A stretch of 64,000 nucleotides of DNA from the NCBI GenBank assembly GCA_029204225.1, contig CM055103.1:47162458-47226457 (forward strand). Reading direction: 5' to 3'. Origin of the DNA: Diphasiastrum complanatum. Its lineage: Eukaryota > Streptophyta > Lycopodiopsida > Lycopodiales > Lycopodiaceae. The position numbers and the translations under genes were made by a program. The notes under the pieces were generated by a model, which made no database searches, was not told the DNA's origin, and saw nothing but the letters and a program-made list of their open reading frames with translations. Positions 11,972-50,751 of this stretch are shown piece after piece; position 1 is the first letter of the stretch, and each line of letters starts with the position of its first letter.

Positions 11972-12506
11972 GTATTGTTTCAAGAATATCTTTCGGTACA
12001 TAGATGATATATGTTTTGTTAATAATCTGAATGCATTGTTGTTTCTAGACTAGGAACAACCATGTACCAATGATAACCTATATGGCTTTATCTGCTTGAA
12101 TACTTAACTATAAAAAATGAAGATATTAAGGAAAATATTGTGAATTTTTTAAATATTACTACTACTTTTGATCTTGTTTCTAGGACTTTTCACATGAAAA
12201 GGTATGATAAGAGAAAGAGAGTTGCCCTTTACTTACTTCTAGTTTATACGTCTTTCATCAAATAGGCCTTTTTTCAACTCATACAAAGTGATCATCTCAC
12301 AGGTTATTGCTGCTATGTACTGTTGTAGCAACCAGAATACCTTCATTACAGAGGTACACAACATCGTTACGGCTTATGAAAAGAATGACTTCATGAAAGG
12401 GTCAAAGTTATGTGAGATTACTAATAATATTCTCAATCACAATGTGCCTCTTGGAGTGATATATGAACTACCAGACAATGCTGATTTTCTCTTGGTAGGC
12501 AGTTAG
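11972..12506 (+). pseudogene. Penelope-like retroelement copy C, RT palm to thumb
   Basis: Homology starts abruptly inside RT: FRYIDDICFVNNLNALLFLD (about 11978-12045) is the YxDD catalytic motif. It is followed in other frames by a region equivalent to the IYPLEYL block and FDLVSRTFHMKRYDKR. The thumb-like VIISQVIAAMYCCSNQNTFI and EKNDFMKGSKLCEITNNIL end near 12506. There is no GIY-YIG endonuclease after the thumb. Copies B and D align throughout. Several frameshifts make it inactive. It is 5'-truncated, as expected of target-primed insertion. Confidence 0.7.
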
Positions 12507-12533: not shown

Positions 12534-12573
12534 CCCTGAGAAACCTTGCTAACTGTGGGTACAGTTGGTGGGT

Positions 12574-12595
12574 TCTCTCTCTCTCTCTCTCTCTC
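12574..12595 (+). repeat. (CT)n tract of the Penelope-like tail, copy C
   Basis: There are eleven CT units between GGGTT and CATGGGCTCTATTA. The same flanks surround an 88-bp tract in copy D, and CATGGGCTCTATT follows a GA/CT tract in copy B. The tract is therefore part of the element. Confidence 0.9.
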
Positions 12596-13772
12596 ATGGG
12601 CTCTATTATATAATAGCTACATGACATATATGCTTTAAAACAACATGGAAATGATCCTCCTTTATGATACCAAATTGAATTATTTGCTTTACTTTAAAAA
12701 ACTTGGTAATGAGACCCCTTATGAAGTTTTTTTTAGAAAGTCTTGTTGGAGGGAAACTTGCCTTCCTTTAAACGGCTAGGATCTATGCACATTATGGGGA
12801 AACAATCAGAGGGTGGGCATCTTCAAACACTTAGTGCATTCAAAGGTACTGACTTCTTTATATAAAGGAAGATCACACAAACCTAAATCACGTTCTTCTT
12901 TCCCTCTCTCTTTCATGCCTTTCCTTTGCTCTGGCTATGCTTCTCCCACTGCGACCTACTACAGCTTGTGAAGGACATTAGCTGGAAGCATACTACAAAG
13001 TACGGTAAGAGTATGAACAGGCTTGAAGCTAAATGATCTTTCAAATACCAAAGGTTTTTCTGCACTGTATAAGCACTTGATGTTGAAGCTTACTTAGCGT
13101 ATGATAATGCATGATTGCATAGCTTTCTGAATTCAGAAGATACATGGGAATTTATCACAGTTGGGCGCTGCTCCTATAGCGAGTTGGATACTAAATCGCA
13201 AGTATACTACATCAACTCAATGATTGTAGCTCAGCGTCGATGTATGTGCTTTCATTGATGATTTTTAGCACACTTTTAAGCATTGAATGGCATGACATGT
13301 TGAATAATAGCCAACAAACCACTGATGGCCAGAACATCGCGATTAGACACATGGATTGTTTACATATGATAGCACCACTTTTTCAGTAGCTACTAGCCGC
13401 GGATTTGAAATGCGACTGAGCAATTCATTTACTTCTGATTTTTGAGAAAGTACCTGTGCTTTGGAGATATATGCTTTGATAGCATATTGATCACTCGTTC
13501 TATACATGATAGAATGCAGTTGGCTGCCCTACTGCAATGCCCATTGCCGCATTGGTAGGCTTGGAGGTTGACGATTACTCAATGTATGACAATGATAATG
13601 TGTTGTGTATGAGGATACTAGTACTATCCACGGATGATAAGCATATTGCTACTACTTGTATGGCTTCTATGAAGCACTATTGATTACTACGAGCATGATG
13701 TTTGTGCAACTAATACCTTTGATTGCTTGCTGGAAATTTGAATAGGAGGCTGATACTCTTATTACAATGTGA
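12596..13772 (+). mobile_element. Long 3' tail of Penelope-like copy C, with TATA box
   Basis: This non-coding tail matches copy B in reverse (45538-46740) to its end at 13772, and parts of copy D (36050-36345 and 37960-38400). Conserved blocks include GAGACCCCTTATGA and CTTGTTGGAG. A TATA box (CTTTATATAAAG, 12856-12867) is present in all three copies. This may be the pseudo-LTR/promoter region typical of Penelope-like elements, or flanking DNA carried along by duplication. Confidence 0.6.
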
Positions 13773-14100
13773 TAACTCTTTAAACCATAAGTATGAGCTA
13801 CGCTTGTCTAAGACAGTTAAGTCTCTAATAATGTGATGAAGTATTATTAGAATGCTATTTGCCATAACCAGTTCCTTTCGGTATGATTATACTAGTACGT
13901 AAGAAGGATACTACCTTGGCTGAGGAAGATGAGTAGCTCACAAGAAACGTTGTCAACACATATCCAGGTATGAAGTTTTGTATTCTTTTAACAATGTGAG
14001 ATAATGGAATCTGTATAAATACACATACGACACAGGGTAGACGTCTAAAAATGGTTAAAATGAGTGACTATATGCATCGGATCATTAAAAGCTTGTGTTT

Positions 14101-14366
14101 CTTTTGCAGTTTTTCATGGTTGTGAACCATATCGCATATTGGCTGCAAAAGTTTCCTTCATGATGGCAGTCAGCTACTTCGTGAACTGAGGTGCGGGAGG
14201 TGCGGTTGTGATTCCTTCGGTCTTCGCTAGCAGACTGTAATCATTGATGTTGCCGCTTCCTTTGGTTTGGTTCGTAATGAATTGTATGCTGAAACCTTTT
14301 GGTTCCCCGGAGGTTTCCCTTGGCTTCACTTCACAATGAGTCGTAGGTGAGGCCTTGTGGCTCTTC
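14101..14366. repeat. Dispersed repeat, copy 2 (partner at 2309-2531)
   Basis: The orientation and block order match 2309-2531. The two copies are about 11.8 kb apart and have different neighbours. Confidence 0.8.
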
Positions 14367-15343: not shown

Positions 15344-15569
15344 GCTTGAACCAAATGTGGTCGTAGATCTCTGGGCCTAGAAATATAATGGTTAGGACTA
15401 ATCCATAGGCTGAACCATATTCTTTAAGCAGCTATGCACTATGGGCTGCTACTTCACCACCATTGTTGAACATGTGAATGCTAGAGAGAGAGAGTTACCA
15501 AATTTCACCTAGTTCCTCTTGACAAAGCAAGACTGAAATCTTTTGAAGCCTTTATTCATATTCCAACAA

Positions 15570-15800
15570 GGTTAAATATAGCTGAAAAGTAAAATATAGT
15601 ACTGAAAGAGCACCATAAAGCATAATCACGTTCAAGACGTCCAGCTGATACCTGCCACCATCCCACAACACAAAACTATATGAGTCAGTACAGTGGGAAA
15701 AGACAGGTGTCATAGCTGAGCGTCAGTTGTTATCCATGTCAAGAAGAAGCTTTACCACTTAGCAACATAGATAGCATTTTAAGATCATAGTCATGTCTTC
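15570..15800. repeat. Dispersed repeat (partner at 49800-50020)
   Basis: It shares TACCTGCCACCATCCCACAA, AAACTA/GC.TGAGT.AGTA, GTTATCCATGTC and TAGCATTT in the same order and orientation. It is non-coding. Confidence 0.7.
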
Positions 15801-17127
15801 CCAAATAAAAGAAAGTTTTTTTAGCCATAGGCCAAGCCCTAATATTACCGTATCAGGGCTTCTGCCAAGCTGATTAGTTTATGGGTAGTTGGTCCATATC
15901 AAGTAATATTATTTTTAAACAGAGTACGAACAATTTTAACAGTCTATATTATATTTAGCTAAAAGACTTGGCGTGGACACGTGTGCTAGTATTAGGAAAA
16001 AGCCATGCTGTTCTAACCCAAGTGAGCCTTGTGAAACAAGGTAGGTCACACATATTGTCCATACTTTTGAGCATATCCATGCTTTCCAGTCGTATCTCAC
16101 CAGAAGTCTAATGTGACACTTATTGTTGCAAGGTTCTTCCCAGTCTCAGAAGCTCTGCCAAGCAGCCTAACCTTTGAGCCTGAGAAGAACATAAACTGGC
16201 CTTTCCTACAATTCTGTTTTGCACATAGGATCACGATGGCCAGTTTTGCAGTTTTCATTTTAGTATATTCACCCTGCCTGTCAGAGGATGACTTAAAGGC
16301 TTTGAACACTTTGTTGTTTATGAATGAGCACTTGCCAATGGAACAATTAACTTCGTTATGGGGCAAGCCATGGTGAACAAATTTAGATTTGCGATGCAGC
16401 ACAGTTGCTCGATTTTCAAGATCCTAAGGGCTGTAACCAAATTTAAGGAAGCTAATCTACTTGCAAAACCAGAAAACTTAGACTAGCATGCCACATTCCT
16501 CATAAAAAAACAAGAAAACTAATTTCTACAAGCATTCAAGAACTGAGATGCTCCATCTTCTTGATTCTTGAAGTTTCCAAGAAACTCAAGAAACCAAAAC
16601 GTAAATGAATTTGCAAGATCTATACCACATTATTGGCTACAAATCTCTTGGATGCTTGCAACCTACACTAATCCACCAAAACAGAAAGGAAATCTAATCC
16701 ACAACTAGGAAAGCAAGAAAACTAATCCCACTCTAAAGTCCACGACCACACACAATATGAATGGAAGGGCATGATCATAGGGGCATCACTCAAGAAAACC
16801 ATCATGATCAAGGAGCTTAGTGTAGCATCAAATTCATGGAAAATCTTCTTATTAAGCATGGAGTAGATACAATGCAAAAAGATCCTCTTCACAAAAAGGG
16901 AGTCCCTTAAATAAACAAGAGAGCTCCTTAGGTGGCATCCTAGTGGCATTTCCACATTACACAAATTACAAGTGGAATAATGCTCTCCACTAGAGGTCAT
17001 CATCAAAAGGTGTCTCACTCTACTTTCATTAAGAGGGGTCTACTTACATTTATTACTTTGCCTAGAAATACTAGTTCCTACATGGTCATTCCATCTTCTG
17101 GGATTCACCATGAGGCTTACACAGTTC
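15801..17127. other. No gene recognised
   Basis: Overlapping open frames on both strands at 16097-16402 (101 codons minus, 87 plus) have no recognisable domain. 16480-16750 is rich in AAGAAA/CAAGAA phrases like those at 63780-64000, so it may be a weak repeat. Confidence 0.4.
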
Positions 17128-18776
17128 TTGCTTGTCATTCCTAACTAGCATTTCTCGGCTCTCATACTCAGCTCTCAGTCTTCATTCATCTCATCTTCTC
17201 AGAGACCTCCTCGGTCTAAGGTATGAGGTGCTCTTGGGTAGCTCTATCTGAGTATCTTGGGGATTCGTTAGAATTAGCCAACACTTATTCGTGTGGGGTT
17301 AAGTATTGTCGTGGTTGACTGCTATGAATATGTAGGCATTAGGGCACATTCGTACCATACTAATCCATACAACCTGTGTACTGTATATGCAGTGACCGGT
17401 TCCGTATGGTTATGTTTGGTTCTAAGCAAATTCATGCTATACAAAACACTTGTTTCAACCATGGTATCAGAACTTCACTATGGATAGGTATGGTTTATTG
17501 TCAATGAGAGATTTCCAATGTTTTTACCAGGTATTAGAGAAAATTCGTGCCATTCGTATCCTTATGTAAAAACTTCATATCTTACGCATATTCATGCTAT
17601 CTAAGAACGTTATATTGGAAACCCTACAATTTGGTTTGGGTATGAATTATTCAAAAATGGTGTGAAAGAGTTGTTAGATTGGTTTGTAAATATGATTCAA
17701 AGGCATATCTTTATACTCATATATATGTCGTTATATATGAAGCAAAATGTTGTGACTAGAGGTAGATATTTGAGTAAAACGGAAACAACCATCTCATGAG
17801 TGTTACGAGCATGTAATGAAACCATGTTCATGATGTGTGTGGTTTGTATATAACCTAGAAATCGTCAAAAGATGTCATACCTGGATGATCATAGACGTGG
17901 TTTCTTGAGAGGAAGCCATGTTATTTCCATGAATAGTTTGTTTGAACACAACAAAAAAGAATAGTCTTTATCTCATAACTTCGTTTAAGAATCAAATAAA
18001 TGCCTAAACAACTTCAAAAGAATGTTCAAACCCACTTGTTATATATAATATGTTTCAACAAGTGACGTACCTTTATGGAGACTTAGTAATGCACGGTTTG
18101 AATTCGAATTTAAACGAAAGTGGTAGTAGGCCATGGTAACAAAAAATGCTACATTACCACAAGGCATAGATGATAATTTAGGATAAAACTCTCTATGAGA
18201 TAAGCAAAGCATTTGAAAAGACATGTTGAGATACCATTTGAGTACTAAATTAAGTAGTAGATCATTGTCCACATAGCATTAGATCCATAAGCCTTGTTCT
18301 AAACAAACTTGCAAGCTTCCTACTGTTTCGAAAGTAAGTAAACTGGAATTTCTTCAACCTACTGTCCATCGCTAGGATAGGAGGTATGTCAACCAAAAAA
18401 ATTTCAAGAAGATAAATTGTTTTTGAGCCTATTGTCCCATCGTTGGACAATGGCCACCCCTATTTGGTTTCAACTCCATATTATCTAGCATGTATGTAAG
18501 CTACAAATGAGCACCAATCCTTTGGTTTGCATCGCTGCCTGGTAGGCAACAACCAATTCATCAAAATTTGTTGGTAAAGACATTTCGTGGTCCAACTCGC
18601 TGCCTATGAAGTAGAAATCACCACTTCATAAAGTGAAGGAGATGAGGAATGGTCCATCACTGCCTATGAGGCAAAGGGATCCATTTTTTTGAAGCAAAAA
18701 TGTGATGAACTATCCATCGTGGACAACGAGCCATCATAGCAATAATTCAGCATACATTTTGCTTAATGTGAGAAGC
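17128..18776. repeat. Segment repeated in reverse at 43567-44548, with LTR end and primer site
   Basis: 17128-17388 and 18087-18776 match the reverse complement of 43567-44548. About 700 bp (17388-18087) are absent from the other copy. The extra part contains CAACCATGGTATCAGAAC: an LTR end next to a PBS-like TGGTATCAGAAC at 17462-17473. An LTR element therefore seems to overlap here. Minus-strand frames at 18039-18450 are conserved in the partner but match no family I know. Confidence 0.75.
18362..18740. repeat. Degenerate array of small hairpins around CCATCG
   Basis: Five to six units follow the pattern CCATCGCTGCCTATGAGGCA. Short stems include ATTGTCC/GGACAAT (18431-18451, loop CATCGTT), TGCCT/AGGCA (18536-18548) and TGCCT/AGGCA (18661-18673). 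The reverse copy at 43640-44000 keeps the array. Confidence 0.65.
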
Positions 18777-20505: not shown

Positions 20506-20613
20506 CTGCAATAGCATCACCATTAAACGTAAGTTAACTTGCCGTATCTATACTGAAAGCGCAGCTCACTTCATACTCTAACCTGCAAGCAAACAGCTTA
20601 TATTAAACCACGC

Positions 20614-20974
20614 TGTTTGATTATTAGGCCCCGGTAGCAGAGAGCCTAATTAGTGGTAGTTGATATGAAATACGTCTTTTGCAGTCGAATCGGTGAGTTT
20701 GTTCTTTTTTTGTCTTTTCAGATCGTTTTTTCTATGAATTATAATGGTAGTATTCACACTGAGGTAAATAATAACTAAATATTATGTGACCGTCAGTTAC
20801 ATTCACGACGACGTTTGAGAGGGACGCCTATTCCACCTGTTCGCATCTATGTAGAGGCTTCAGCCTACAATATGTAGTTAGAGTATCTCTGGCTCTCTCT
20901 CTTGGTGTGTGATGCTCTCTCTCTTTCCTCTCTTGCTGATCTTGTGATAGCTGCTTGCTGCCCATTCTGTATCA
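20614..20974 (+). mobile_element. LTR in left arm
   Basis: The 361-bp LTR runs from TGTTTGATTA to CTGTATCA and directly abuts the primer site at 20975. It has a CT-rich U5. The right-arm counterpart is 26661-27020. It lies in the intron before the ULT-like last exon, in antisense to it. Confidence 0.75.
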
Positions 20975-20986
20975 TGGTATCAGAGC
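20975..20986 (+). promoter_or_regulatory. Primer-binding site (tRNA-iMet), left arm
   Basis: The sequence is a perfect TGGTATCAGAGC directly after the LTR end. The internal region that follows (20987-22153) shows no gag. Confidence 0.9.
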
Positions 20987-22444
20987 GAGGTTTGTCCACA
21001 TCTTCCATTCACGGCCGACATCTCCCTGTCTGCTAACTAGATTTGAACTGTGCCTTTCAAGTCTTGAAAATGTAGAGCCTTTGTCTGTATCGTGAAAGTC
21101 TGGGTGGGACTTGCTGTAAATAATTCTTACGATCAAGGATGAAGGGTACTACAGGCCTGTGTGAAGTTGTTTCTATGGAGCGCTGCTTCCTATGAGTTAG
21201 GCTCAACGATTCTGCTTAACGTATCACCATGCAGCGATATGCATCTGCATGTGTGAACAGAGAGAGACCTGCTATCGTACTGAACAGCACCAACAACGAG
21301 ATGGTCCTGCATTTGCCTTGCAGCACCATCGTTACCTAGGTCTTAATTATTGGGATCTCATTTTTTTCACAAATTTGATTGTTGTAATTTTCTCATGGAC
21401 AAAATCTTGATACTACGTAACTCTAATGAATAGAATCTTGAAACCACATAGGCCTCCTGGATGGAGTTAAAAAAGCACCTTGCACTGACTACATGAGATG
21501 CTTATGATTAGCATGAATGCTATAAGCATGACTTATGAACATGGGTTTTACTTGTAAATATAGCTGGTAATACAAGTACAGAATTTTGCATAGCTTTACT
21601 CTTCAAGAACTGTCGTAGCCTGTTCACTTTAGATCATAAGATATTACTGTAGTATATAGGATTATCGTTCCCACAGAGATGGATAGTTCACAATAATTGG
21701 AAAAAAAAAGGCTTTTTATGTTTTAGCATATGAAAACCAGGTTATCATCAGATATTAGAGAGATCAGGCGGCCAGTACTACCTTAATGTAATGCAATAGT
21801 ACCACACTAGTTAAGTTGATTTTCCAAAGTTTCAAATAATTCTGATGAAATACTCAGAGTTCTTAGTGATTTCAAAAGTTGACAAGATTAAATCTATCGA
21901 CAATTGATATACTCCTTATCAGGAAGTTTTGATAAGTTCTGTTCTACTAAATCTGAGGTAATTATTTCCCACAGTCAAATCTTAGAAATTGTTAGCCATG
22001 GTTTGGAACTGTCGAAAAATATTAATCAACAATGAACTACACTCGAACACTTCTAAAATGGAGTTCAACATTCATTAATGAATCTCACTTCCGAATAGGT
22101 ACTAGATGATGGAAAAAATAGAAACATAATTGTGCAAATCTATCAGGCTTTGTAACGTAACGAAACGAAACGAAAGTAGACAAAATGAAGCGAAACTTGA
22201 ACGAGCTCTGATATTGATATTGCTGAAGCGAAGTAATCACGAAGCGAAAACAGTTGCGAACGAAATCAAATTGGATGGAGTTCGAATATGATTGCTGGTC
22301 ACTGCCTGCTATATGATTCCTACAATCCTCCAGAATGTAGACAGACATCGCTGACCTACGTTATAGATCAATATAGCATTCAACAAGATTGAACCAGTGT
22401 GCAGAATTGATTAAACAAGTAAATGAGATACACAAATTGTTACA

Positions 22445-26648: not shown

Positions 26649-26660
26649 GCTCTGATACCA
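26649..26660 (-). promoter_or_regulatory. Primer-binding site, right arm
   Basis: This is the minus-strand TGGTATCAGAGC, the mirror image of 20975-20986. Confidence 0.9.
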
Positions 26661-27020
26661 TGATACAGAATGGGCAGCAAGCAGCTATCACAAGATCAGC
26701 GAGAGAGGAAAGAGAGAGAGCATCACACACCAAGAGAGAGAGCCAGAGAAACTCTAACTACATATTGTAGGCTGAAGCCTCTACATAGGTGCGAACAGGT
26801 GGAATAGGCGTCCCTCTCAAACGTCGTCGTGAATGTAACTGACGGTCACATAATATTTAGTTATTATTTACCTCAGTGTGAATACTACCATTATAATTCA
26901 TATAAAAAACGATTTGAAAAGACAAAAAAAGAACAAACTCACCGATTCGACTGCAAAAGACGTATTTCATATCAACTACCACTAATTAGGCTCTAGCTAC
27001 CGGGGCCTAATAATCAAACA
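26661..27020 (-). mobile_element. LTR in right arm
   Basis: The LTR is 360 bp with the same ends as 20614-20974. The near-equal length in both arms supports the chosen LTR bounds. Confidence 0.75.
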
Positions 27021-27128
27021 AGGTGGTTTAATATAAGCTGTTTGCTTGCAGGTTAGAGTATGAAGTGAGCTGCGCTTTCAGTATAGATACGGCAAGTTAA
27101 CTTACGTTTAATGGTGATGCTATTGCAG

Positions 27129-27306
27129 TAGGTTGGCTTCATGCGAGGAGTTGGCAGAAAGAAGGGTGCGACAGCAGATAAGGGGTTGTCCAAGAGAGCG
27201 CAATTGCGATTGGTGTCAAGAATGTGTTTGTCTTGGCTGCCGGATGTGCAAATACCTAGACTGTGAGTGCAGCGATTGTGTTTCCTTATACCGCAATCTG
27301 TCATAA
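27129..27306 (+). pseudogene. ULTRAPETALA-like last exon (right arm copy)
   Basis: It has the same exon as 20328-20505 with a handful of changes near the end (CVSLYRNLS instead of CVAFYGNMS). The acceptor TATTGCAG, all 11 cysteines and the TAA stop are kept. Open frame and Cys pattern survive in both arms. That could reflect recent duplication rather than selection. Confidence 0.75.
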
Positions 27307-28724
27307 TCGCCCTCCCTTCTCACTCTTTCTCTCTCATCCTTTTCTGTCTATCTGATTAGATTGGAAGTTAGACAATCTACTGTTACTCATTTTTCATTTG
27401 GCTCATTTTGTGGCTTCTTCAACTGAAGGGTTCATGATAAGAGAACAATTAAAGCTTTTATTTGTTTGCTGGTCGAGAGTATAGGCAGTTAGCTAGTTTC
27501 GGTTTTTGCAGTTGCAAGAACAGTACAAATTCAAGTATAAACGGCGCTCCAATAAGTGGCATTAGTGATTACGTAATCTCCTCTCCCTGAGGCCAGGAGT
27601 TTACTCCAATCTGCCGCATAAACGAGGAAACACAAGAGAGAATTTATGCATAGACATGTATGTTTGTTTTCCTCAGCTGATTCTGCAGGATTTCCTCGTG
27701 TTGATAATCCCGTTAGTTGATAACGAATATTCAGGCTACCCAGCTGGTTGTGAAGAAAGTCTTGGTTCTGATATGCAAATATCCATAGTATATACTGCAA
27801 TTGTAGAGACTGTGCTGCAGTAGCCAACATTTCTGGATCTTTCCTGGCTTCAAAAGGACAGAGAGAGCAGTTTACATTCTAACAAGTATTGGCTACTACG
27901 TACCCTTACAAGTAATACGCTGGTGCTTGAAAAAATACATTTTTTTATGAGTTGATGTATTTCAAAGAGTTTGAATGGTTGATGATTTATGATCTCTTTC
28001 GATATGCATATTTGTTGAATGTTTTTTTATGTTGCCCTTGTCTTGCAAATGCAATATACTATGTGTTAAAGTTGCTCATGGGAGTTGGTGAAGAAATCAA
28101 TCGTAAAGGATAATATGAATTATTAAAACAAGAACCATACAGTATTCTAACACAAAGGCCTTGCTATATCATATTGTTGTATTTTTACTTCATGTCAAGC
28201 CAACAATTTTAGCTTATGGAAAGGCGTTCATGACATAATACATGAACACGAGAACAATAAGTTGAACTTTCTGTTTAAAGTTTGGTACAAGTAGTAGAAA
28301 GCTCAATGTCTTATGATACAACATTTTTTTTTTTTTAGAAATGAGTTTGGGCTTGTAAATCTGAATTTTCTAAATGTTAAGTTGATGTAACATGATAAGA
28401 TTCATTGATGATTAATATTATTTCATTGTATGCTCTTCAATCCATCATTAATTATACATAGGATTGTAATTGATTCAGTAGTGTTCTGTATTGTACAGAG
28501 AACTTGAGAAAAACAAGTAGTTTAATTCTAGGTTGATTATTGTTTTGAAGGTAATTTTTGAAATGTGATATCACTAATCATTGACTTTGTATATCACTTT
28601 GTAACATGAATTCATGTCGATTTGATAGGAATAGAAGCTATGACATTAGGTAGGGAAACACGAAAAAAAAATTGTTACTTGCTAAAAGCAACAATTTGCC
28701 TACAGATTAGATGCAACCATGTTA

Positions 28725-35459: not shown

Positions 35460-35860
35460 AAACCTGATCAAAGAATAATCCATTTTGGATTTACCCTCTG
35501 GAATACCTTGAGATTAAACTCAAGGATGTTGAAGATTATACCATCAACCTTTTAAACATCACTACCAGATTTGATCAAATCACAAGTGCTTTCCATATCT
35601 CTAAATATGATAAGAGGAGGACACCACCTTCTCTGTCTGTCAATTTATCCACCTTGCATCAAGCAGACCTATCTTTAACTCATACAAAGTGATCGTCTCA
35701 CATGTTATTGCTGCAATGTATTGTTGTAATGATCAAAATACCCTAATTAAGGAGGTTGAAAAACTAATATCAAAAGAACGGCTTCATGAAAGACAAATTA
35801 TGTAAAATTGTCACTAACATCGTTCAGAGCAAACAATTATTGGGCACAAGTATTTAATAC
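35460..35860 (+). pseudogene. Penelope-like copy D, RT thumb region
   Basis: It opens SKNNPFWIYPLEYLEIKLKD and runs without stops through ITTRFDQITSAFHISKYDKR to about 35690. It then shifts frame to FNSYKVIVSHVIAAMYCC and IKEVEKLISK. It aligns with copies B and C. The 5' end is truncated downstream of the YIDD motif, and no endonuclease domain follows. Confidence 0.7.
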
Positions 35861-35888
35861 TTGATGGTGATAGGTTATTTTTGGCGGG

Positions 35889-35959
35889 CGGTTAGCATCC
35901 CCTCTCAGTGGTGCTAATTGACATCTGAGATTTGATGCTTACTACAGGAAGGCTCATGG

Positions 35960-36051
<92 letters not shown>

Positions 36052-36345
36052 GGGCTCTATTCAATGGTAACTACATGATATATATGCTTTAAAACATCAT
36101 GAAATGGGTTCTTCTGTATGGTATCGGAACAATTAAAATGCTCTATCTTGCCAAACTTGGAAATAGGACCCCTTATGAGAGTTTTTCTAAAATGGTCTTG
36201 TTGGAGAGAAACTTGTTTTCCTTTGGACGGCTGTGATGTGTGCACGTTATAGGGATACGATCAGATGATGAGCATTTTCAAACACCCAGTGAATCCAGGT
36301 GTACTGACTTCTCTATATAAGAGAAGATTACTATAAAATCCTAAA
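35889..36345 (+). mobile_element. Penelope-like copy D tail: hairpin, 88-bp (CT)n and TATA box
   Basis: The stem CGGTTAGCA/TGCTAATTG (35889-35897 and 35912-35920) has two G-U pairs. (CT)n spans 35962-36049. CATGGGCTCTATT then leads into the conserved tail with CTCTATATAAGAG (36311-36323). The order is identical to copy C. Confidence 0.75.
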
Positions 36346-37959
36346 CCAAGAATTCTATTCTAAGCATGCCAATCACAAGCAACACAACGGAAACGGATGG
36401 TGGACAAACCAACCCAACCAAACCTAGATCGAACGGATCTAGCCCCCAAGTTATGGATCAATCACAAAGAGGAATGAGGCATCACCCTAGCAGCATACGG
36501 CTACCAGTCATGCAATCAAGCATACACTAGTGAGAGCCCAATAGGCATACTTATACCCTCCAAGGCCCATGCACCACTAGTAGTGCACTGTGACACCTCA
36601 TTGGACATCTCTGCAAACTAGCTGGGCCATGTCATCTAGTTCTCCAATGACTCACTGATAGACCCATACAAATCCACCATCATGAGTTTAGGCCTACAAC
36701 CATTAATTTTGACCTTATACACATAAGGGACCCAATTCCCTTATAGTCATTACTAACTTACGGGTTGTTGGTCTACCGATCTCTAGCATGGACATGCTAC
36801 CCGAGACCAGTCATGGGCATTACATTCTTCTATCCTTAGAACTTGAAACTAGGGAAGTTCTTCCTTAAGCTCCCTTACTATTACCAAGAATCATCATTGT
36901 ATGTGCGACTATTCCATCGAACTAGATCCTTGGTAACTATATGATTTCTCAATCATTTAGTTATTGTATCCATGATCCTTCTGGGTTCAACTCGAGAAAT
37001 GCCCAATAATTTATCCAACAGGTCCAATTGATCTCCAAAACCAAGATGCTCTCCTTTACGTAGACTCTACTAGAGTCAACTTACATGAAAAACCAGATGC
37101 ACTAGAGTTTCTTCCGAGAGGTCCAACTGGTAAGCTAAGAATATGATCTTTTACAAGATCTAATATGGTCCTTGGTATCTAGGGGACAATTTGTAATGCT
37201 TGTCGGTATGCATTCTCAAATATATCCAATTTCCCACTTGAAAGTCTTGAGGTAATCATTTCTGATTAGCAAAATGTCGGTCCCAATCTTAGGCACACTG
37301 GACATTTTCACATGCTATTTGTAGCACTTCCTACATATCATGTAGCAAATCCACTACTTTCTGAAACCTGATCGTACGAGTCTCTATCGAAATGAGTGAT
37401 ATAGGTTTAAAACTATATATAAGCACACACGGGTTATAACCGGTAGACAAATGCTTACTATAACTAAATCTCCGTCAAGGATAACTTCCTCTCTGAGGAG
37501 ATTGCTATCAAAATATAAATATAAATATCATTTGATCTTCTGATCATGCATATAATTCTTCTTTTAAATGATCAAGTATAACTAGAATCTGAACTATGAT
37601 TCGTCAATCATAATTCATCGGATTCTTGTCCTTTACTCAATAAAAGAACATGATAACCTAACATAGGTAACTACCAATAATTTGAAGAGCTTCAAGCTCA
37701 GAGTCCTATTTAGATTAGCGAATACAGCCGACCAAAAGTGACCAGTGAATATCGTATCGTGAATGTTCATAATGTCACTCGGTAATCCGTAAAGCCTAAC
37801 CAAACACTCTATAACTACTAAGAAGTGCCCATGGAAACTAAAAAAATAAAACAAAAATTCCTTGGCAAAACCTCTAACCACCCCCCCCCCCTGCTTCTAC
37901 CAATTATGCACACTACAAACAGTCTTATATTGTTCCATCGCAGTAGGTTATCTTCCAAA
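36346..37959 (-). mobile_element. Ty3/gypsy integrase C-terminal remnant inserted in the copy D tail
   Basis: Between 36790 and 37560 the minus strand reads, across frames, VVDLLHDM, DFQVGN, DKHYKLSP, AYQLDLSEE, VFHVS and LVRWN, the order of a gypsy integrase C-terminus. Below 36790 lies LTR-like sequence. It splits the copy D tail, which resumes near 37960, so it inserted later. Confidence 0.7.
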
Positions 37960-40720: not shown

Positions 40721-40929
40721 CCGATTCATAAGCTAATAAAGGTCTGTTTTTATGGTTTAGGATGGATTCAGGATCCTTCCTCTTTTGGGTTATGGGGATC
40801 TCCTTCCTCCACCTAACCATTTTGTTCAGACACTGATTTGTTGTATGAAAAAGTCGTTGAGATGCATAAATTTGTCATTAACACTGATAGGGCTACTTGT
40901 TCTTCTACTGACCTGAGGATAAGATTCTT

Positions 40930-42360
40930 TGCCTGATTGATTTGCTTGAAACTATTGACTGGATAAAGATTTATCTTGAGTTTGTTAAGAACAAAGACAC
41001 TTTGAGCTTAGTGGAGAATTGTCTTAATGATTTCGTTAAAAAATTTGAGGAAGAGAAAAAGTTCTGTAATATGCACATTAGAAAAGTGTTCATGTGCTTG
41101 GAGAATGAAAATGGTATTACTCCTACTATCCTTCCCCTACCGTGTCTAATGCTCCTCTATCACCACATCCTTTAGTCTTTACTGATGACCTTGATGAGGA
41201 TAGTGCCTCTCAGCTTGAGATCTTCTCTCAAGACATTTGCGACATTGGTGACCTCTCTTCTTATGACTTTTGCCAATCTAAAGGCTGTCAAGTACCCTTT
41301 GTTCCTGGCAGAATTATTGAGTACAATCCACCCCTCACGTCTTATAAACTTTGGAGTCTGCCTTTTGTCACCCATCCCTATCGATCTTTGGATCATGATG
41401 ACTCATATGACAGAATAAGAAATACAAGTCTGCAAGTTGGCCACCATGCATAAATATCCTTCACTTGAGACCCCTATTTCTTTTGACACCATCATTCGTA
41501 TGAACAAATTTGAACGATCATGTTGTTTGTCTGAGCAAACCTGGGCCAGAATTAGAGGCCACTTTGAGACCAGTTTCAATAGAATGAACCTTAAACAGGC
41601 CATAATCTGAAATTGGAAAAGACCTTTTTTAAACGTAGATGTGGTGAAAAATACAAAAACAGCTCTTCCATCATTTGGTTTGACCATGCTATTTGGTTCA
41701 TGATGAACAACCTAGCCAAGTTCTTTTCTGGTGCTTCCCTTCAAAATCAGATGAATGCATTTTTCATGTGGCTTCATAAACCTGCTAGGGATGTAGTGAA
41801 ATCACACCTGACTTTTCTCTTTATCCACCAATACATGACTAACATTTCCATTGAACTTGCAAAAGATTCCTTTTCTAAACTTCTTGCAACTTTGGGAGAT
41901 GCTGAAAACATCCGAGAAATAGAGAGTTTTCTAAAACGATCTAGTTTTTCTACCCTCCAAGATAAGTACTTCCAAAACTTGAACAAAAGAACTGGCTCTT
42001 TTAATCTCAATAATCTGAATTTAGTCATTTCTAGATCAGGAACATGAAAGAAAAAGCGGTTTTCAGATTACAAAGGAAAGGAAGGACAAAGTAGTGGCAC
42101 CAAAGATGATCTACCAATAAAAAAACTAAACATTTATAAATCCTAATCGATGTGCAGGATGAAGATGACATAGTTAGAAGGGAAATTAGTATATCAGTGA
42201 CCGGCCGTATCCAGTTCACCACTAGCAGTGACACAAGGAGACTTTTTTTACATTTATGTTACTGTAATAGAGTTTTTGAGACTTCTTTCATACATTATTT
42301 CAGATACATTGATGACATATGTTTTATCAATGACCCTAATATTCAGATTTTTATGGATAA
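40930..42360 (+). pseudogene. Penelope-like copy A: N-terminal region and RT YIDD motif
   Basis: The N-terminal region is spread over frames at 40942, 41142 and 41613. It reads MHIRKVFMCLENENG, NAPLSPHPLVFTDDLDEDSA, then RIRGHFETSFNRMNLKQAII and IIWFDHAIWFMMNNLAKFFS. Around 42290-42350 comes FRYIDDICFINDPNI. The fingers between the two parts are deleted when compared with copy B. The reading is interrupted by about five frame changes or stops. Its 5' side abuts the truncated Copia family B. Confidence 0.7.
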
Positions 42361-43566
42361 GACACAAACTAGGACCCTTGAAAAGCCATACTTAGCACGG
42401 ATATGCGTAAGATACGTAGTTTCTACAAAAGGGTTAGAACGGCACGGATCTACCCTAATACCTTGTAGAAACATTGGAAAAATCTCACTCATAATTAATT
42501 ATGTCTATCCAAAGTGGTGTCCGTATACCATGGTTGATTTGTGATTTCTATATTGCATGACTTTGCATAGAGACAATCATACAATCAAGCATAGTAAATC
42601 TCAAACTCACCCTAATAAGTGCTATTAGACGTTTGGTGGGATACAACTGATAAGCATGGATATGTTCAGGAGTATGGACAACGATGCATGACATACCTTG
42701 CTCTATATGGGTCACTTGGGTTAGCATGGCATGGATTTGCCCTAATACCAGCACACATGTCCACACCAAGACTTTTGGCTAAGAAAATTAAAAATGGTTC
42801 AAACTTTTCATACTCTGTTATTACTAAAAACGATTTGATGTGGACCAACTCACCGTAATGATCAGCATGGCACTCACCTTGATACGGTGATATAATGGCT
42901 TGGCCTATCGCCAAAAACACTATCGGATTGGGAAGACACGATCGGATCAACTAAACGACTTGAAAGTGGTTATGCTTTATGTTGCTTTTTAGTACTATAT
43001 TTTACTTTTCAACTATACTTTACCTTGTTGGATTATGAATAAAGGCTTTAAAAAGCTTCAGTCTTGCTTAGTCAAGAGGAACCTAGTGCAGTCTTGTATC
43101 TCTCTCTCATGGATGCTTCTTTGTTTATTCACACCTTGCTATGCTACCATACCACTGAACAACAACTAGCTTTTGACACTTCAAGTTTATAAGGTCCAAA
43201 ATAAACATCACCCTTAACCTACAATATATCTTTTCAAAATTTCTCCCTCTTTTATGATATATCTTTTCAAAAAAAACTTTCCCCTCTTTTGAAGGAATAG
43301 GATTTGTTGCTTCACTCTCAAGGCAAGATAGTACCTTCCAGGAAGTCTCGTGTTAAACCACTATATATCACAGAATTGCGACCATAATTTTTCACTACAC
43401 TTTGTGAAGAAGGGTTCTCCATTTTGTTCCTATTGAGAATGTGCCCTACGATACTTACATCCTTTGGAAGCTACCAAATGGTAAGAGGTCTTCTCTATTT
43501 CATTTCAATACAAGTATCTTGTGTTGCTTTACACACTCAGATTAATGTTTTATGACATGTTTGCTC
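42361..43566. other. No gene recognised
   Basis: Non-coding. Parts (about 43020-43110, and ACCACTATATATCACAGAATTG near 43360) look like LTR or leader sequence, but no paired LTR or primer site was found. Confidence 0.4.
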
Positions 43567-44548
43567 ATAGCTTCTCACATTAAGCAAAATGTATGTTGAA
43601 TTATTGCTATGATGGCTCATTGTGCACGATGGATAGTTCATCACATTTTTGCTTCAAAAAAATGGATCCATTTGCCTCATAGGCAGCGATGGACCATTTC
43701 TCATCTCCTTCACTTTATGAAGTGGTGATTTCTACTTCATAGGCAGCGAGTTGGACCACGAAATGTCTTTACCAACAAATTCTGATGAATTGGTTGTTGC
43801 CTACCAGGCAACGATGCAAACCAAAGGATTGGTGCTCATTTGTAGCTTACATACATGCTAGATAATATGGAGTTGAAACCAAATAGAGGTGGTTGTTGTC
43901 CAATGATGGGACAATAGGCTCAAAAACAATTTTTCTTCATGAAATTTTTTTGTTTGACATACCTCCTATCCCAGCGATGGACAGTAGGTTGAAGAAATTC
44001 CAGTTTACTTACTTCCAAAACATTAGGAAGCTTGCAAGTTCATCTTTTATCCCACAAAAAGTTTGTTTACAACAAGGCTTATGGATCTAATGCTATGTGG
44101 ACAATGATCTACTACTTAATTTAGTACTCAAATGGTATCTCAATATGTCTTTTCAAATGCTTTGCTTATATCATAGAGAGTTTTATCCTAAATTATCATC
44201 TATGCCTTGTGGTAATGTAGCATTTTTTGTTACCATGGCCTACTACCACTTTCGTTTATTCCAATTCAAACCGTGCATTACTACAGGTTGTACGGATTAG
44301 TATGGTACGAATGTGCCCTAATGCCTACGTAGTCATAGCAGTCAACCACGACAATACTTAACCCCACCCAAATAAGTGTTGGCTGATTTTGACGAATCCC
44401 CAAGATACTCGAATAGAGCTACCCAAGAGAACCTCACACCTTAGACCGAGGAGGTCTCTGAGAAGATGAGACGAATGAAGACTGAGAGCTGAGTATGAGA
44501 GCCTAGAAATGATAGTTAGGAATGACAAGCAAACTGTGTAAGCCAGCA
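43567..44548. repeat. Reverse copy of 17128-18776
   Basis: It matches the reverse complement, including the hairpin array and the frames MDNDLLLNLVLKWYLNMSFQ and AMDSRLKKFQFTYF. The internal 700 bp are absent. The match stops at 43567, exactly where the inverted-repeat arm begins in the other copy (18777). Confidence 0.88.
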
Positions 44549-44556
44549 GTATATAG

Positions 44557-45537
44557 TCAAAGATATGCATAGTTCTTGAGTCCTCCAGGGCTAACTTCCT
44601 ATCATGGAAGGTAAATACTTCTCTCATCTTGAAAGGAGAAGGTCTATGACATTGGGTCAAAGGAACATAAGAGATGCTTGGTAGCACATGCAAGGAGCTA
44701 CAAGAGTGGAAATAAAATAATGACAAAGCAATAGTTGTCATGTCTTCTTCCATTGAAGATAGCATCACACTTGACCATGCAACAATCTCTAATGCAAGAG
44801 AGATGTGAGATGCATTACTAGCTAAGTTCCAATCTAAATTGCAAAGTCAGATCAGGCATTTAGAAGACTGACCAACTTATTTGAGATGGGATGGCAAAGA
44901 TCTCATGTCCTTTATCAGAAGAATGAAGGATCTATTCCTGTCACTACACAACGCTGAAATAGAACATGCAATCTCAGTAGAGAAACAGCTCACCTACCTA
45001 CTATATGCTCTACCGAGATTTCAAACAACCCGAACTTTGTTGGCTAAAGATTCACAAATGACACTTGAGAAGGCTGTGATCAAAATCAATTAAGAAGTGG
45101 AGGCTCGTGACCACCTTGATGACAAGGACACCTCCGATCAAGCTCTCTATAGCAATAAAGAGAAGTAGAAAACGAAGTTCCAACCTAAGAGGGAGTCAGA
45201 CCAAAGGCAAGATCGAAATCAGTAAACAGAGGGAGGCCAAAGGGGCAAGTGGAAAGGCAAAAGCAAGCAAAAGCGACAAGGTGGTGACAAAAAGACATGT
45301 GTGAGATGCATACATGAAGTCCAAACTGTTGATACATGTTGGCTTAATCCCAAGATAGAATGCATCCACTGTCATAAGAAAGGTCATGCAGCCATGGACT
45401 ACTATCAAAATCCAAGGAGTAAATAAGCTCAGAACAAACGAGAGAACAACAATAGTTCTTTCTACATGGAGGAACCAGAATTCTCCAAGATGGCTGAAGA
45501 ATGAGCAAGCAGAAACTCAACTGTTATTTATGCACTG
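44557..45537 (+). pseudogene. Copia family A gag, copy 2
   Basis: It is the reverse complement of about 540-1545. LRWDGKDLMSFIRRMKDLF and the zinc-knuckle region (CIHCHKKGHAAMDYY, last Cys changed to Tyr) are recognisable. Stops occur. It ends abruptly at GCACTG (45537), where the Penelope-like tail begins, and its 5' side joins the 43567-44548 block. Confidence 0.88.
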
Positions 45538-46860
45538 TAATAAGAGTATCAGCCTCCTATTCAAATTTCCAACAAGCAATCAAAGATATTAGTTGCACCA
45601 AAATCATGCTCATAGTAATCAATAGTGCTTCATAGAAGCCATACAAGTAGTAGCAATATGCTTATCATCCATGCACAGTACTAGTATCCTCATACACAAC
45701 ACATTATCATTGTCATACATTGAGTAATCATCAACCTCCAAGCCTACTAGTGTGGCAGTGGGCATTGCAGTAGGGCGGCCAACCACATTCTATCATGTAT
45801 AGAATGAGTCATCAATATGCTATCCAAGCATATATCTCATAAGCACATGTACTTTCTCAAAAATCAGAAGTAAATGAATTGCTCAGTCGCGTTTCAGATA
45901 TGCGGCCAGTAGCTACTCAAAAAGTGGTGCTATCATGTGTAAACAATCCATGTGTCTAATCGTGATGGTCTGGCCATCAGCGGTTTGTTGGCTATTATTC
46001 AACATGTCATGCCATTCAATGCTTAAAAGTGTGGTAAAAATCATCAATGAAAGCACATACATCAACGCTGAGCTACAATCATTGAGTTGATGTAGTATAC
46101 CTGCGATTTAGTATATAACTCGCTAAAGGGGCAACGCCCAATTGTGATAAATTCCCATGCATCTTTTGAATTCAGAAAGCTATGTGATCATGAATTATCA
46201 TACGCTAAGTAAGCTTCAACATCAAGTGCTTATACAGTGCATAAAAACCTTTGGTATTTGAAAGATCATTTAGCTTCAAGCTTGTTCATACTCTTACCTT
46301 ACTTTGTAGTATGCTTTCAGCTATTGTCCTTCACAAGCTTTGATCCTCAACGTTGTAGTAGGTCGCAGTGGGAGAAGCATAGCCAGAGCAAAGGAAAGGC
46401 AGGAAAGAGAGAGGGAAAGAAGAAGGTGATTTAGGTTTGTGTGATCTTTCTTTATATAAAGAAGTCGGTACCTTTGAATGCACTAAGTGTTTGAAGATGC
46501 CCACCTTTTGATTGTTTCCCCATAATGTGCACAGATCCTAGCCGTTCAAAGGAAGGCAAGTTTCCCTCCAACAAGGCTTTTTAAAAAAGACTTCATAAGG
46601 GGTCTCATTACAAAGTTTGGTGAAGTAAAGCAAATTATTCAGTTTGGTATCATAAAGGAGGATCATTTCCATGTTGTTTTAAAGCGTATATGTCATGTAG
46701 CTATTATATAATAGAGCCCATGAGGGGGAGAGAAAAAGAGAGAGAGAGAGATCGATCAAAAGTAGTAGTAATATTTAAAAAATTCACATATTTTTCTTAA
46801 TATCTTCATTTTTGATAGTTAAGTATTCAAGCGGATAAATCCATATAGGGTTATCATTGG
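45538..46860 (-). mobile_element. 3' tail of Penelope-like copy B
   Basis: It matches copy C 12596-13772 in reverse, including the TATA box (near 46448-46460). A GA tract (46735-46752) replaces the (CT)n. The thumb-coding part and hairpin are missing: the coding region jumps from the block after YIDD straight into the CT tract. Confidence 0.7.
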
Positions 46861-48300
46861 TACGTGGTTGTTCCTAGTCTAGAAACAACAAAGCATCCGG
46901 ATTATTAATAAAACATATATCATCTATGTACCGAAAGGTATTCTTGAAAGACTGCAGATAGTTCAACCTACCAAGCTTGGCTAATCTTTTCATAGATTGT
47001 ATAATTTGTAGTAAGACAAATACCAATTACACCACGTGGGAGAACATGAGAAACCCTCCATGGGTATCCCGCATACCTGCCTCCAAGTCTTATTTTCTAT
47101 TCTAACTATGCAATTGTTAACTAGTGCATAATTCCACTGGCATAATTGCATTTTATCAATACAACATTTATTTGTAGATTGGTTTTTCAACTTCCATTTA
47201 AATTCACTAGAACGTGGTCCGTATTTGTATGCAAGTGTCTCATTCTTAGGGTATTTGAAGGAATATACAATCATTTTACGTATAACCGGCTTTAAACCAT
47301 CTTGGCCATTCAAAGGACTGTTTTCAGAACATTTAGATATATTGGTAGACCACATAGATGTGATCATTCTTGGTACATTAAGGTAGAATTCAGTGGAAAA
47401 GTTGCATTGCCAAAAGTAGGTTAGTATCCACATTTAGGATACTCTGATATGTATATGCCTATAGACCTGCTCCCTCCATGAGGAACGGAGGCAGCATACT
47501 AAGAGCTCCTATAAGAAATGTCGCCGCCTTAGAAAAATAACAATCATGTGCATTGGTAATCCATCTCAAAGAGATCTTATGTGCTTTAAAGGTACATAGA
47601 AGGAAAGGTAACTCCTCTTTTCCAAGTAGATTCTCTAGTATGTTCCTTGTAAAGGTTTGTTTTATGACATCCATTGCATTAGTGGTAGTATTATTTTTCT
47701 CATCTAGAAAGGGGGCGAAATCTAGACTAGAAAGTCTTTCTAAAGCCAATTTCCTTACAAAATGAATATACATGAAGCCAAGATTATGTTCAGCTTTTTC
47801 AACTCTATTAACATACAAGTTTGTAGTATTCCAACTATGTTCATATGTGGCATCTTTTAACTTGTTACCAGTTAGACATCATCCATGTAGCCATTTGGTT
47901 TTCTTCAGAAAATTTGTAACATTAGATTTGCAAAGTAGGGCATGTATGATAATTGCCTCATTATCAATGGTCTGATATACGGGTAACAATTTAGCTAATT
48001 TTAACCATTCTTGATTTCAGTGGCAACTTCATCTATGTTTGATTTTCAAATTGGGATATGATTAAGTCCTTTACTTAAATCGTTTATTAAAGACCTGTTA
48101 TTAACAATCTTGGTATTCATAGAAACCACATGCCCAAAATTCATAGAAACAAAATCTTTGAAGCATTTTTTAACATCTATTGTAGTAGCATAAATGCAGA
48201 AAATTTTGTTGTTACCTTGTCTAGTATTGCCTCTATTAGAAAAATATTTCTTATTCTTGTTGTGGCTTCCTGACATGACTGAGCTTGGCAAAGTGGAGAA
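46861..48300 (-). pseudogene. Penelope-like copy B, reverse transcriptase core
   Basis: Read on the minus strand, 48046-48291 has SLINDLSKGLNHIPI, like the LSKGLxFxP motif upstream of RT in Penelope-like elements. 47459-47818 has LPFLLCTFKAHKISLRWITN (fingers, KxHK...RxI). 46990-47433 has WRQVCGIPMEGFSCSPTWCN (GIPMG..SP..CN motif). 46880-46960 has FRYIDDICFINNPDALLFLD. The motif order is that of a Penelope-like RT. It is the most complete copy, though frames shift repeatedly. Confidence 0.72.
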
Positions 48301-49459
48301 ATTGAGCTTTTACATAAGACATTAAATTTCATGGATGTTCTCGACATCACCAAGGTTAGCTAGAAGTCTAGCAGTAGGATCATTCGTGAGTTCAATAGCG
48401 GCATCAATCATGTATTGTCTAATGTAAAGCTTTGAAAACATCTATTTTGGGTTTGTGTAGCCACAGGAAAAAGACATTTATTTGGTTATGCAGGGAAGCA
48501 CTAGGAAATAATTTATCAAAATTGTTCATCATAAACCATACGGCGTGGTTGAATCAAATAACGAAAGAATTATTTTTATCACCTCATCTACATTTAAAGA
48601 AAGGCCTTTTCCAATTCTAGATCCGAGATTGATGTAAGTTCAGTCTATTGAATCTTGTCTCGAAATGGCCTCTAGTTCTAGCCTAGGTATGCTCAAAAGG
48701 ACATTTCAAAGGCTCAAATATATTCATCTTGATAGCAGTATAGAAGGAAATGGGAGTATTAAAAGTAGGATTTTTATGTAAAGCAGCTTGTTTGCAAGTT
48801 TGGACTTCCACATCAGTCAAATGGGCGAGAGTAATCCATAGTTCTATAGAAATCAGTGCCAAAAACTTAATAGAAGGGAGACTCCATAATTTGTAGGCAG
48901 TTTTGACAAATTTGAATTCGATAGTTTAATTGTGGACCAGTGGTACTTGGCAACTCTTAGCTTGAATAAACTCGAAGGAATATTGATTTACTTCACAAAT
49001 TTTTTGTGACGAGGATTCTAGTTGTGAGGTACTTTCTTCATCAAGGTCATTGACAAAAATCAACGCGTGTGGAGAGAGAGGGGGGTTCGATGGGGATAGA
49101 AATTTAAGAAGAAAAAACACCATTTTTTTTTCAAGACAAGCAAATATTTTTCGAATATGAGCATAACAAAATCTTTTCTCTTTCACGTGTGGAGGGAGAT
49201 GGTAAGTCGAGTATGTCGATGTCGAGTATATATATGAGATATCGAAGTCGATGGAATGAAGTAAGTCAGGTACTTTGATGTTGAGCACTTCAATGTCGGG
49301 CACTTCGATGAAGTCTATGTCGATGGAGTCAGGTGTGTGAGTTGATGAAGAAGTCGAAGTCAATGGAGTTGAATGGAGTAAGTTGGTGAATATACAAGGG
49401 AAGTCGAAGTCGGACTTCGTACTTCGGACTTTGAAGTCGATAGAGTCGGACTTTGACAT
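48301..49459 (-). pseudogene. Penelope-like copy B, N-terminal region
   Basis: The 177-codon frame at 48926-49459 starts with a low-complexity stretch built from repeated GTCGA-type DNA (SIDIDFIEVPDIEVLNIKVP). It continues with FCYAHIRKIFACLE, NPPLSPHALIFVNDLDEE and STSQLESSSQKIC, matching copy A. 48301-48900 is the degraded counterpart of copy A 41460-42040. No known domain was recognised. Confidence 0.6.
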
Positions 49460-50751
49460 ATTTTTAGGATGCTCATTATTAAATGAATTTGAGGCTAAGC
49501 ATTGAAATCAAACAATACCAAGGATGATGGGTGCCCAATCTATGGTTAAAATGCTATGTAGTTGAAGCACATTTAAGCATGGTCAAACATTGCATAAAAG
49601 TTGCAAATTAATGTCACTATTCTTCATGAGAAATCATAGAGAAAGGTTGATGGCCACAGTGTGGGAGAATACCTACAAGACACCTTATGACCAAAAGATG
49701 ACGGGAGATGTTGGCAAACAGATGTCTCAGAGTAAAACATTTTACATAGTCCCTGACAAGTCAAGACCAAACCTTTTGAGCCCTTTTGTTATATAGCACA
49801 ACAAGTTAAAACAAAGCTGCATGAAATCTTGTAGTAGGGCTATAAAGAGACGCAAGTTTTAATATGCTTAGCTGTTACCTGCCACCATCCCACAAAACAA
49901 AACTGCATGAGTTAGTATGTGAGAAAGACATGTTTTGTGGTTGAGCATCACTTGTTATCCATGTCTGAAACAAGATCCACTACATGACAACTTAAATAGC
50001 ATTTACGAATAATAGTCCAATCTTGTACACCAATACATTCTATAGCAATACGTTCTGTCCTGAAAAAGCCGTATAAGAGAAGAATCCATATTGATTAGCA
50101 TAAAGGCCAGAAACCGTATATTATTCACCCAACATAGTATAGTAATTGAGAAAAAACTATAAATAATCACTTATAGTAGGATAGGTAGTACAAGGTATCA
50201 GGACAGATCCATGCCATACTGATTTCTTAGGCCTCATAATTGCTCATATAATTCTATGAACTACGGTATGTATTTAGGGAAACTCCATACCATTCAGACT
50301 ACTTTGAACTAAAAACAACTCCCAATTATACAATTAATATGTTTCCAAAATTAAAAATAACGATATAATTCCGTTTCTTTTTTTTGATAAAAGGAGTCTA
50401 TGATGCATTGGCTGAAAACAAAATTGTAAAACCTATCTCGAATATTAGCATTTAGTTTGCATTGTTTATGTGCAATTTGTACTAATTTGGCTCATTTTAA
50501 TAGTACTTTGTGAAAAACATATTCTTGGTTCAAAAACTCTAAAACATTTCGTCGCATACTCAAAACTAGCTCTTAGTTCTATAATGGCCGTGATGATATC
50601 AAGAACATTCAATGGAGAGTCTAATTGTCCATCTAAACCTAATTGATGTGAAAACACCTACAATGTTTGCCAATTAATTACAATGACCATCTGATTCCAA
50701 ATGCTGGTTTGCTTGATACAACATCATCAACTATGAGATGATTGTAAATAA

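Follow-up and report, generated by a model that had tools for sequence, protein, structure and literature searches.

How could a Penelope-like retroelement with no recognizable endonuclease come to insert along the whole length of chromosomes? The question is raised by a stretch of 64,000 nucleotides from the genome of the lycophyte Diphasiastrum complanatum (GenBank assembly GCA_029204225.1, contig CM055103.1, positions 47,162,458 to 47,226,457 of the forward strand; hereafter the window). Athena-type elements, which lack an endonuclease, are described in PMC3846280 as sitting largely at the ends of chromosomes. The window holds four broken copies, A to D, of a family that is best read as a new Penelope-like variant with two open reading frames (ORFs) and not as one of the Athena/Coprina type. 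The explanation developed here, to which as a whole we give about an even chance, is that of a now decayed, high-copy Penelope-like family with two ORFs, pseudo-long terminal repeats (pLTRs) of about 2 to 2.4 kb, no recognizable endonuclease and TC-repeat ends, combined with a proposed cycle of priming on such repeats.

A high-copy family with a probable Penelope-like reverse transcriptase

The host genome (1.74 Gb in 5176 contigs, with the window on contig 12) was searched with a 199-residue reverse transcriptase (RT) query from copy B. The best 150 of 3838 candidates were scored and gave E values from 5e-104 to 1e-59, the window's own matches included, so that the family predicted from the window to be abundant has at least 150 scored matches to the RT piece of B. 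The best-scoring match outside the neighbourhood of B shows 70% identity. A second search, with 347 residues taken from another copy, scored 117 of 5713 candidates and yielded 121 matches, with identities as low as 53%. No copy examined is intact across both ORFs; stop-free ORF2 frames of 461 to 571 residues are present in loci L037, L039 and L056. On the nine contigs whose length is known, 75 copies were mapped, B and its near-copies accounting for seven of these; the copies are evenly spread (Kolmogorov-Smirnov p 0.68), and two of them lie within 1 Mb of a contig end.

The Pfam RVT_1 profile, a check proposed with the original prediction, recognizes nine of the 16 family members that were aligned, with E values of 0.1 or below and of 3e-6 at best. 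Together with the 150 scored host matches, this argues that the RT remnant of copy B is not a chance resemblance. None of ten window pieces, nor a read-through version of B, matched RVT_1. The sequence of the family is that of an RT, with the motifs in the order LNKGLNHIPL, VDKAQHN..FMC, TFKAHK..RWITNA, TDI.KCYENIPL, GIPMGFACSPTWCN, RYIDDICF, KFDKRRELPF and SYKVIVAQIIAAMYCC; in the alignment about 60 residues separate RWITNA from TDI.KC.

The motif GIPMGT.CAP, which we take to be that of animal Penelope-like RTs, was used to retrieve a GTDB contig (L055) from a mussel symbiont assembly, which is probably mussel host DNA. The family profile found the RT fragment of this contig (GIPMGTNCAPLLADLFLYSYE) at E 1e-6 among 1222 ORF pieces; in the same search, pieces of eight host RVT_1 loci (L001-L008, of which L001 reads as Gypsy-type) gave nothing below E 7. 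An hhalign comparison of the family RT with the same fragment gave E 1.2e-7 and 33% identity over 55 columns. From the motifs and this one fragment, the RT of the family is most likely Penelope-like. No relative of the window RT piece or of the family profile was confirmed in IMG/VR or GTDB, scanned with few peptide patterns (one for the profile); DNA patterns gave no match in IMG/VR, and searches of PHROGs, PDB and NCBIfam gave no useful match. The family was not found in the one limited literature collection searched for lycophyte Penelope elements and for microsatellites in combination with Penelope-like elements.

Two open reading frames in a -1 relation

In the longer copies, an ORF1 of about 470 to 500 residues ends in RKLNFYRD and a stop and is followed by ORF2, which encodes the RT, in the -1 frame. 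This relation was found in all 16 sources with matches abutting the junction, two of which (L027 and L028) are near-identical; L010, L011 and L023, whose matches do not adjoin the junction and whose frame values differ, were left out. L039-type copies, copy A and L056 all close ORF1 at one shared codon, with either TGA or TAA. Between L044 and L043, differences at the three codon positions are 0.11/0.11/0.41 over the last 60 ORF1 codons and 0.20/0.15/0.43 over ORF2; between L044 and copy A they are 0.17/0.35/0.65 over the last 60 ORF1 codons. Because of this third-position excess, ORF1 appears to be coding up to its stop, and the same periodicity argues against an intron between the two ORFs, which was considered as another explanation of the junction and rejected. 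The family shows a two-ORF layout. No slippery heptamer was seen by eye at the junction, and three ORF1 pieces had no Pfam match below E 0.1.

Of 24 sources that can be aligned ahead of the RT, 20 carry a CxC pair there (PCTC, QCKC, PCIC) and four have lost it. In this count near-identical pairs were counted apart; seven B-like sources are rearranged at this place, and L009 does not cover it.

Search for an endonuclease

The frames of copies C and D end in LLVGS and FLAGG, each followed by a stop, about 70 bases before a TC tract, and, as had been noted at first, no GIY-YIG domain follows the thumb in either; in L037 the ORF2 frame continues into the TC tract. Such a domain was also looked for in longer, still broken copies, since its presence in full-length copies would have spoken against the original prediction, and none was found: Pfam recognized no GIY-YIG domain in the three ORF1 pieces, nor in L044 and L043 when each was read in its three sense frames over 7 kb, pLTR included. 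RVT_1 was seen in the frames of L044 and not in those of L043, so the negative for L043 is weak, and a scan of this kind misses decayed domains. A narrow profile built from four host GIY-YIG domains, which recovered its own sources, matched none of 5933 six-frame pieces from the element loci and the window. In a genome search in which the best 150 of 471 candidates were scored, the nearest of 134 GIY-YIG matches to any of 118 RT copies on large contigs was 18.9 kb away. The ORF1 domain compared by hhalign with the four host GIY-YIG domains gave a probability of 0.2, both alignments being shallow, and its single-sequence AlphaFold fold was useless (pLDDT, the predicted local distance difference test score, of 41). 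Judging from these sequence comparisons, the family may lack any cutting activity.

A GIY-YIG endonuclease supplied in trans was considered and dropped, as two of the four host GIY-YIG loci, L051 and L052, adjoin Helitron-like helicases.

The GIY-YIG domain of L051 (E 4.6e-12) lies downstream of a Helitron-like helicase ORF, recognized by eye, and that of L052 downstream of a helicase ORF with Pfam matches to PIF1 and Helitron_like_N. L053 and L054 were noted along with them, as was a cluster of GIY-YIG matches on contig 8 (0.6-3.2 Mb), where 28 of the 150 scored matches fall within 2.5 Mb. There seems to be a Helitron family equipped with a GIY-YIG endonuclease.

Pseudo-LTRs and TC tracts at the element ends

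The longer copies carry direct repeats of about 2 to 2.4 kb: 2.45 kb at 92.6% identity in E44 and 1.94 kb at 94.9% identity in E40. In E41 a 5'-truncated copy stands upstream in tandem, and copies C and D, which begin within ORF2, are likewise 5'-truncated. These arrangements look like the pLTRs and partial tandems of Penelope-like elements, as described in PMC11167929 and PMC8969392. The pLTR starts with CATGGGCTCTGTTACG and ends in AATCTTGTTACTCTCTC.

In 25 of 27 sources, a TC run of at least 6 units stands no more than about 150 bases from where the C-terminal match ends. For the 3' ends the best 40 of 2884 candidates were scored and 20 were read: four continue into ORF1 and 16 are external, of which nine enter TC of at least 10 units. 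For the 5' ends (best 40 of 534 candidates, 20 read), six follow an ORF2 end, L082 and L083 follow pLTR sequence, the flank of L079 is pyrimidine throughout and not classifiable, and 11 have flanks unmatched to element loci. Ten of these 11, counting both L085 and L093, which share one flank, adjoin a run of pyrimidines 28-161 bases long (16-160 bases as strict TC), and the eleventh, L080, has TC with CACA between. Across the 64000 bases of the window, TC/GA tracts of at least 10 units outside the mapped pieces cover 108 bases. TC on both sides points to targeting, with TC repeats as the putative insertion target.

Two further arrangements were observed at TC tracts. On contig 13 (45785398-45787531; L096/L066), a pLTR start and a pLTR end lie 2134 bases from each other, with a TC tract at either side; this is probably a solo pLTR or else a non-autonomous relative. 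In L064, L072, L075 and at window positions 43096-43130, a pLTR of a second type opens with CATGGATG.TCC, or similar, directly after the terminal TC run of the first type, which reads as different families nested head to tail at TC tracts.

Proposed insertion cycle

Priming on TC/GA repeats is most likely the insertion step. In the cycle that we propose, an RNA would run from a pLTR through ORF1, ORF2 and a (UC)n tract into the next pLTR and end in CUUGUUACUCUCUC. Translation of ORF1 would be followed by that of ORF2, and so of the RT, through either a -1 shift or reinitiation at the stop conserved in ORF1. Judging from the end sequences, the RNA could pair through its pyrimidine-rich end with the GA strand where a (TC)n/(GA)n tract is nicked or broken; the 3' end of the GA strand would then prime reverse transcription, and the other end of the element would be closed within the same TC tract. 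Such a cycle would yield TC-flanked units of the form pLTR-ORF1-ORF2-(TC)n-pLTR, partial tandems, 5'-truncated copies and pLTRs without ORFs.

A stronger form of this idea, which we put forward tentatively and consider possible rather than likely, is that no endonuclease is needed away from telomeres: the RNA, ending in its own (CU)n, would be primed by the GA strand of broken or nicked TC tracts, the simple repeat would take the role that the telomere has for Athena elements, and ORF1 would be a new accessory protein, co-expressed with the RT by way of the conserved -1 junction. If this were true, the lack of an endonuclease would be uncoupled from confinement to chromosome ends, two traits joined in the described endonuclease-deficient Penelope-like elements. 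Telomerase-like priming on simple repeats and ordinary interspersed insertion would be linked in a way open to testing, and a plant genome would be shown to hold a large family of such elements, with many ends in one repeat type that can be counted.

Comparison with known groups and alternative explanations

The family shares with Athena/Coprina elements an RT without a GIY-YIG domain and differs from them in its TC-repeat ends, its two ORFs and its lack of confinement to chromosome ends. Of the original prediction, the Penelope-like RT without recognizable endonuclease stood; the assignment to the Athena/Coprina type did not, in view of the even spread of the 75 copies and of the TC ends, and the new branch that it had named as an alternative fits better. 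Chlamys and Naiad elements, reportedly described by Craig et al. in 2021, are Penelope-like elements of the green lineage with permuted domains. They have an N-terminal GIY-YIG domain, a CxC motif before the RT, an insertion-in-fingers domain, a microsatellite insertion bias and a single ORF. Set against these features, the family is similar in its CxC between the N-terminal part and the RT, in the microsatellites at most of the external ends read, in its pLTRs and in its occurrence in the green lineage; the CxC and the microsatellite ends suggest a possible closeness to this group. It differs in having no recognizable N-terminal GIY-YIG domain and in its two ORFs in -1 relation, with an ORF1 of about 470-500 residues in which no known domain was recognized. 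Hammerhead ribozymes are known from canonical Penelope pLTRs, and none was found in 37 kb of element loci, where the sole match at E of 1 or below was JPX_2 at 0.35. With canonical Penelope/Poseidon elements and the conifer Dryads, as presented in PMC9033089 and PMC11167929, the family has in common pLTR-ORF-pLTR units, partial tandems and 5' truncation; it differs from them in lacking a C-terminal GIY-YIG domain, in having no hammerhead that could be found and in its two ORFs.

Several observations weigh against the proposed explanation. The Penelope kinship is drawn from motifs regarded as Penelope-like, weak RVT_1 matches (scores under the Pfam cut-off wherever bits were shown) and one short fragment; the fragment was itself retrieved through a motif of that kind, a neighbouring second RT piece of L055 did not match the family RT, and neither did a host TERT exon, which was not checked for all RT motifs. 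In the first 70 ORF2 codons periodicity is weaker (0.23/0.17/0.34), and copy A shows no third-position excess there. ORF1 may hold an endonuclease too diverged for Pfam. Seven of the 16 external 3' ends pass without a long TC run into other sequence, six of them (all except L077) beginning with the pLTR's own short CT run, and E40 and E41 lack TC at their 3' ends. The ends read, 20 of the 40 best on each side, are close relatives and include some duplicates. TC also precedes the pLTR inside units, so that outer 5' TC could be carried by the element, and 3' TC could arise by slippage. The window has no Rfam hammerhead match at the gathering score.

Other explanations were weighed against the same evidence. 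The family could belong to the Chlamys/Naiad branch, its ORF1 being the known N-terminal GIY-YIG part in an unrecognizably decayed or diverged form, with insertion by ordinary endonuclease-made target priming in microsatellites. The CxC that 20 of 24 copies carry immediately ahead of the RT, the TC repeats and the pLTRs agree with this, and an ORF1 stretch, SIWYIMNN..IFF.GAS...LGDAENIREIERLL...YFQN, loosely resembles GIY-YIG spacing by eye; however, the arginine is absent from its expected place in this stretch (also by eye), neither the ORF1 pieces nor the whole-copy frames match GIY-YIG in Pfam, and the hhalign comparison, of shallow alignments, gave a probability of 0.2. We consider this reading unlikely, if still a serious one. 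It is improbable that the family belongs to the known endonuclease-deficient Athena/Coprina group and was dispersed from chromosome ends by later rearrangement: no endonuclease was found at the sequence level, and PMC9033089 lists endonuclease-deficient elements for a spike moss and two conifers, but the even chromosomal spread, the TC-repeat ends and the two ORFs in -1 relation argue otherwise, and the window contains no telomere repeat pair, (TTTAGGG)2.

That the family forms a new retroelement class merely resembling Penelope, with true LTRs and a non-Penelope RT, is more improbable still. Repeats of about 2 kb, pLTRs apparently without ORFs and weak RVT_1 scores speak for it. Against it stand the GIPMG motif and the mussel fragment, to which the family is 33% identical over 55 columns, and none of the scanned pieces and frames has a Pfam match to protease, RNase H, integrase or tyrosine recombinase. 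The partial tandem of E41 also speaks against it, being of the kind described for Penelope-like elements in PMC11167929 and PMC8969392.

Copies in the window

The two-ORF Penelope-like family is represented in the window by copies mapped by self-comparison, blastn to the longer copies E44, L043 and L056, a motif scan and reading of the sequence. Their features are as follows.

Copy B
45537..50024, minus strand: whole remnant (blastn to E44 and L043; window self-comparison)
49729..50024, minus strand: 3'-most part of the 5' pLTR (76% to E44)
48288..49186, minus strand: ORF1 remnant, with FKCR*G motif at 48575-48598 (70-71% to E44 and L043; motif)
46754..48171, minus strand: ORF2 (RT) remnant, frameshifted, thumb deleted (69% to E44 and L043)
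46737..46750, minus strand: short TC tract at the expected place of the thumb and ORF2 end (sequence)
45537..46751, minus strand: 3' pLTR start, CATGGGCTCTATTATAT (82% and 73% to L043; sequence)

Copy C
11978..12503, plus strand: 5'-truncated ORF2 end with RYIDDICF, thumb and stop (motifs, blastn)
12574..12595, plus strand: (TC)11 after ORF2 (sequence)
12574..14103, plus strand: pLTR part (82.5% and 76% to L043; 92.7% to copy B)

Copy D
35475..35892, plus strand: 5'-truncated thumb and ORF2 C-terminus (motifs, blastn)
35962..36049, plus strand: (TC)44 after ORF2 (sequence)
36028..36348, plus strand: first 300 bases of the pLTR and end of the TC tract (75.7% to B; 76.6% to L043)

Copy A
40759..42280, plus strand: ORF1 remnant (FKRRCG at 41628-41651) and first ORF2 codons in the -1 frame (69% to E44, 73% to L043)
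42290..42360, plus strand: isolated RT motif C, RYIDDICF (motif scan)
42394..43108, plus strand: 3' pLTR remnant with a short TC run at its end (74.6-82% to L056 for 42394-42917; the rest by sequence)

Fifth remnant
15478..17922, minus strand: pLTR pieces, ending at an (AG)6 run at 15483-15494 (self-comparison, blastn, sequence)

The four places carry mutually related sequence, as the original prediction had it, but not the same RT motif series in order: in the motif scan each holds a different broken piece, and no window copy carries the complete set. LSKGLNHIP (48052-48078, minus strand) and GIPM.FSCSP..CN (47026-47070, minus strand) occur in B alone, RYIDDICF in A (42302-42325, plus), B (46910-46933, minus) and C (11994-12017, plus), and the thumb motif S[QH]VIAAMYCC in C (12297-12326, plus) and D (35698-35727, plus). 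The extents first given were too short; comparison with the longer copies extends B to about 45537-50024, C to 11978-14103, D to 35475-36348 and A to about 40759-43108, and brings out in A an ORF1 that had gone unrecognized.

Copy B lies on the minus strand; frameshifts and stops interrupt it, and its thumb is gone. It contains KAHKISLRWITN, and its ORF2 remnant retains LSKGLNHIP, KAHK..RWITN, ISKC, GIPM..SP..CN and RYIDDICF. In the self-comparison its match with C breaks at 46754/12173 and restarts at 46743/12574, C holding 400 bases in the gap. Copy A consists mostly of ORF1 and one RT motif, the RT core being deleted, and a start of the second pLTR type (CATGGATGCTTC) follows directly after the TC run that ends its 3' pLTR remnant.

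Copy B has six near-copies of 88-98% identity (L009 and L013-L017) at 47.05-47.40 Mb of contig 12, within 350 kb. The cluster is probably a local duplication, so that B would not be an insertion independent of these six.

Other repeats in the window

Two inverted repeats were also revealed by self-comparison. A pair at 19411-22153 and 25480-28274 (2.8 kb, 96% identity), extended by 18777-19224 and 28277-28724 at 98.7% identity, reads as a recent duplication or a transposon pair. The other, at 547-1540 and 44545-45537 (95% identity), is copia-like by eye, and its second copy adjoins copy B at about 45537.

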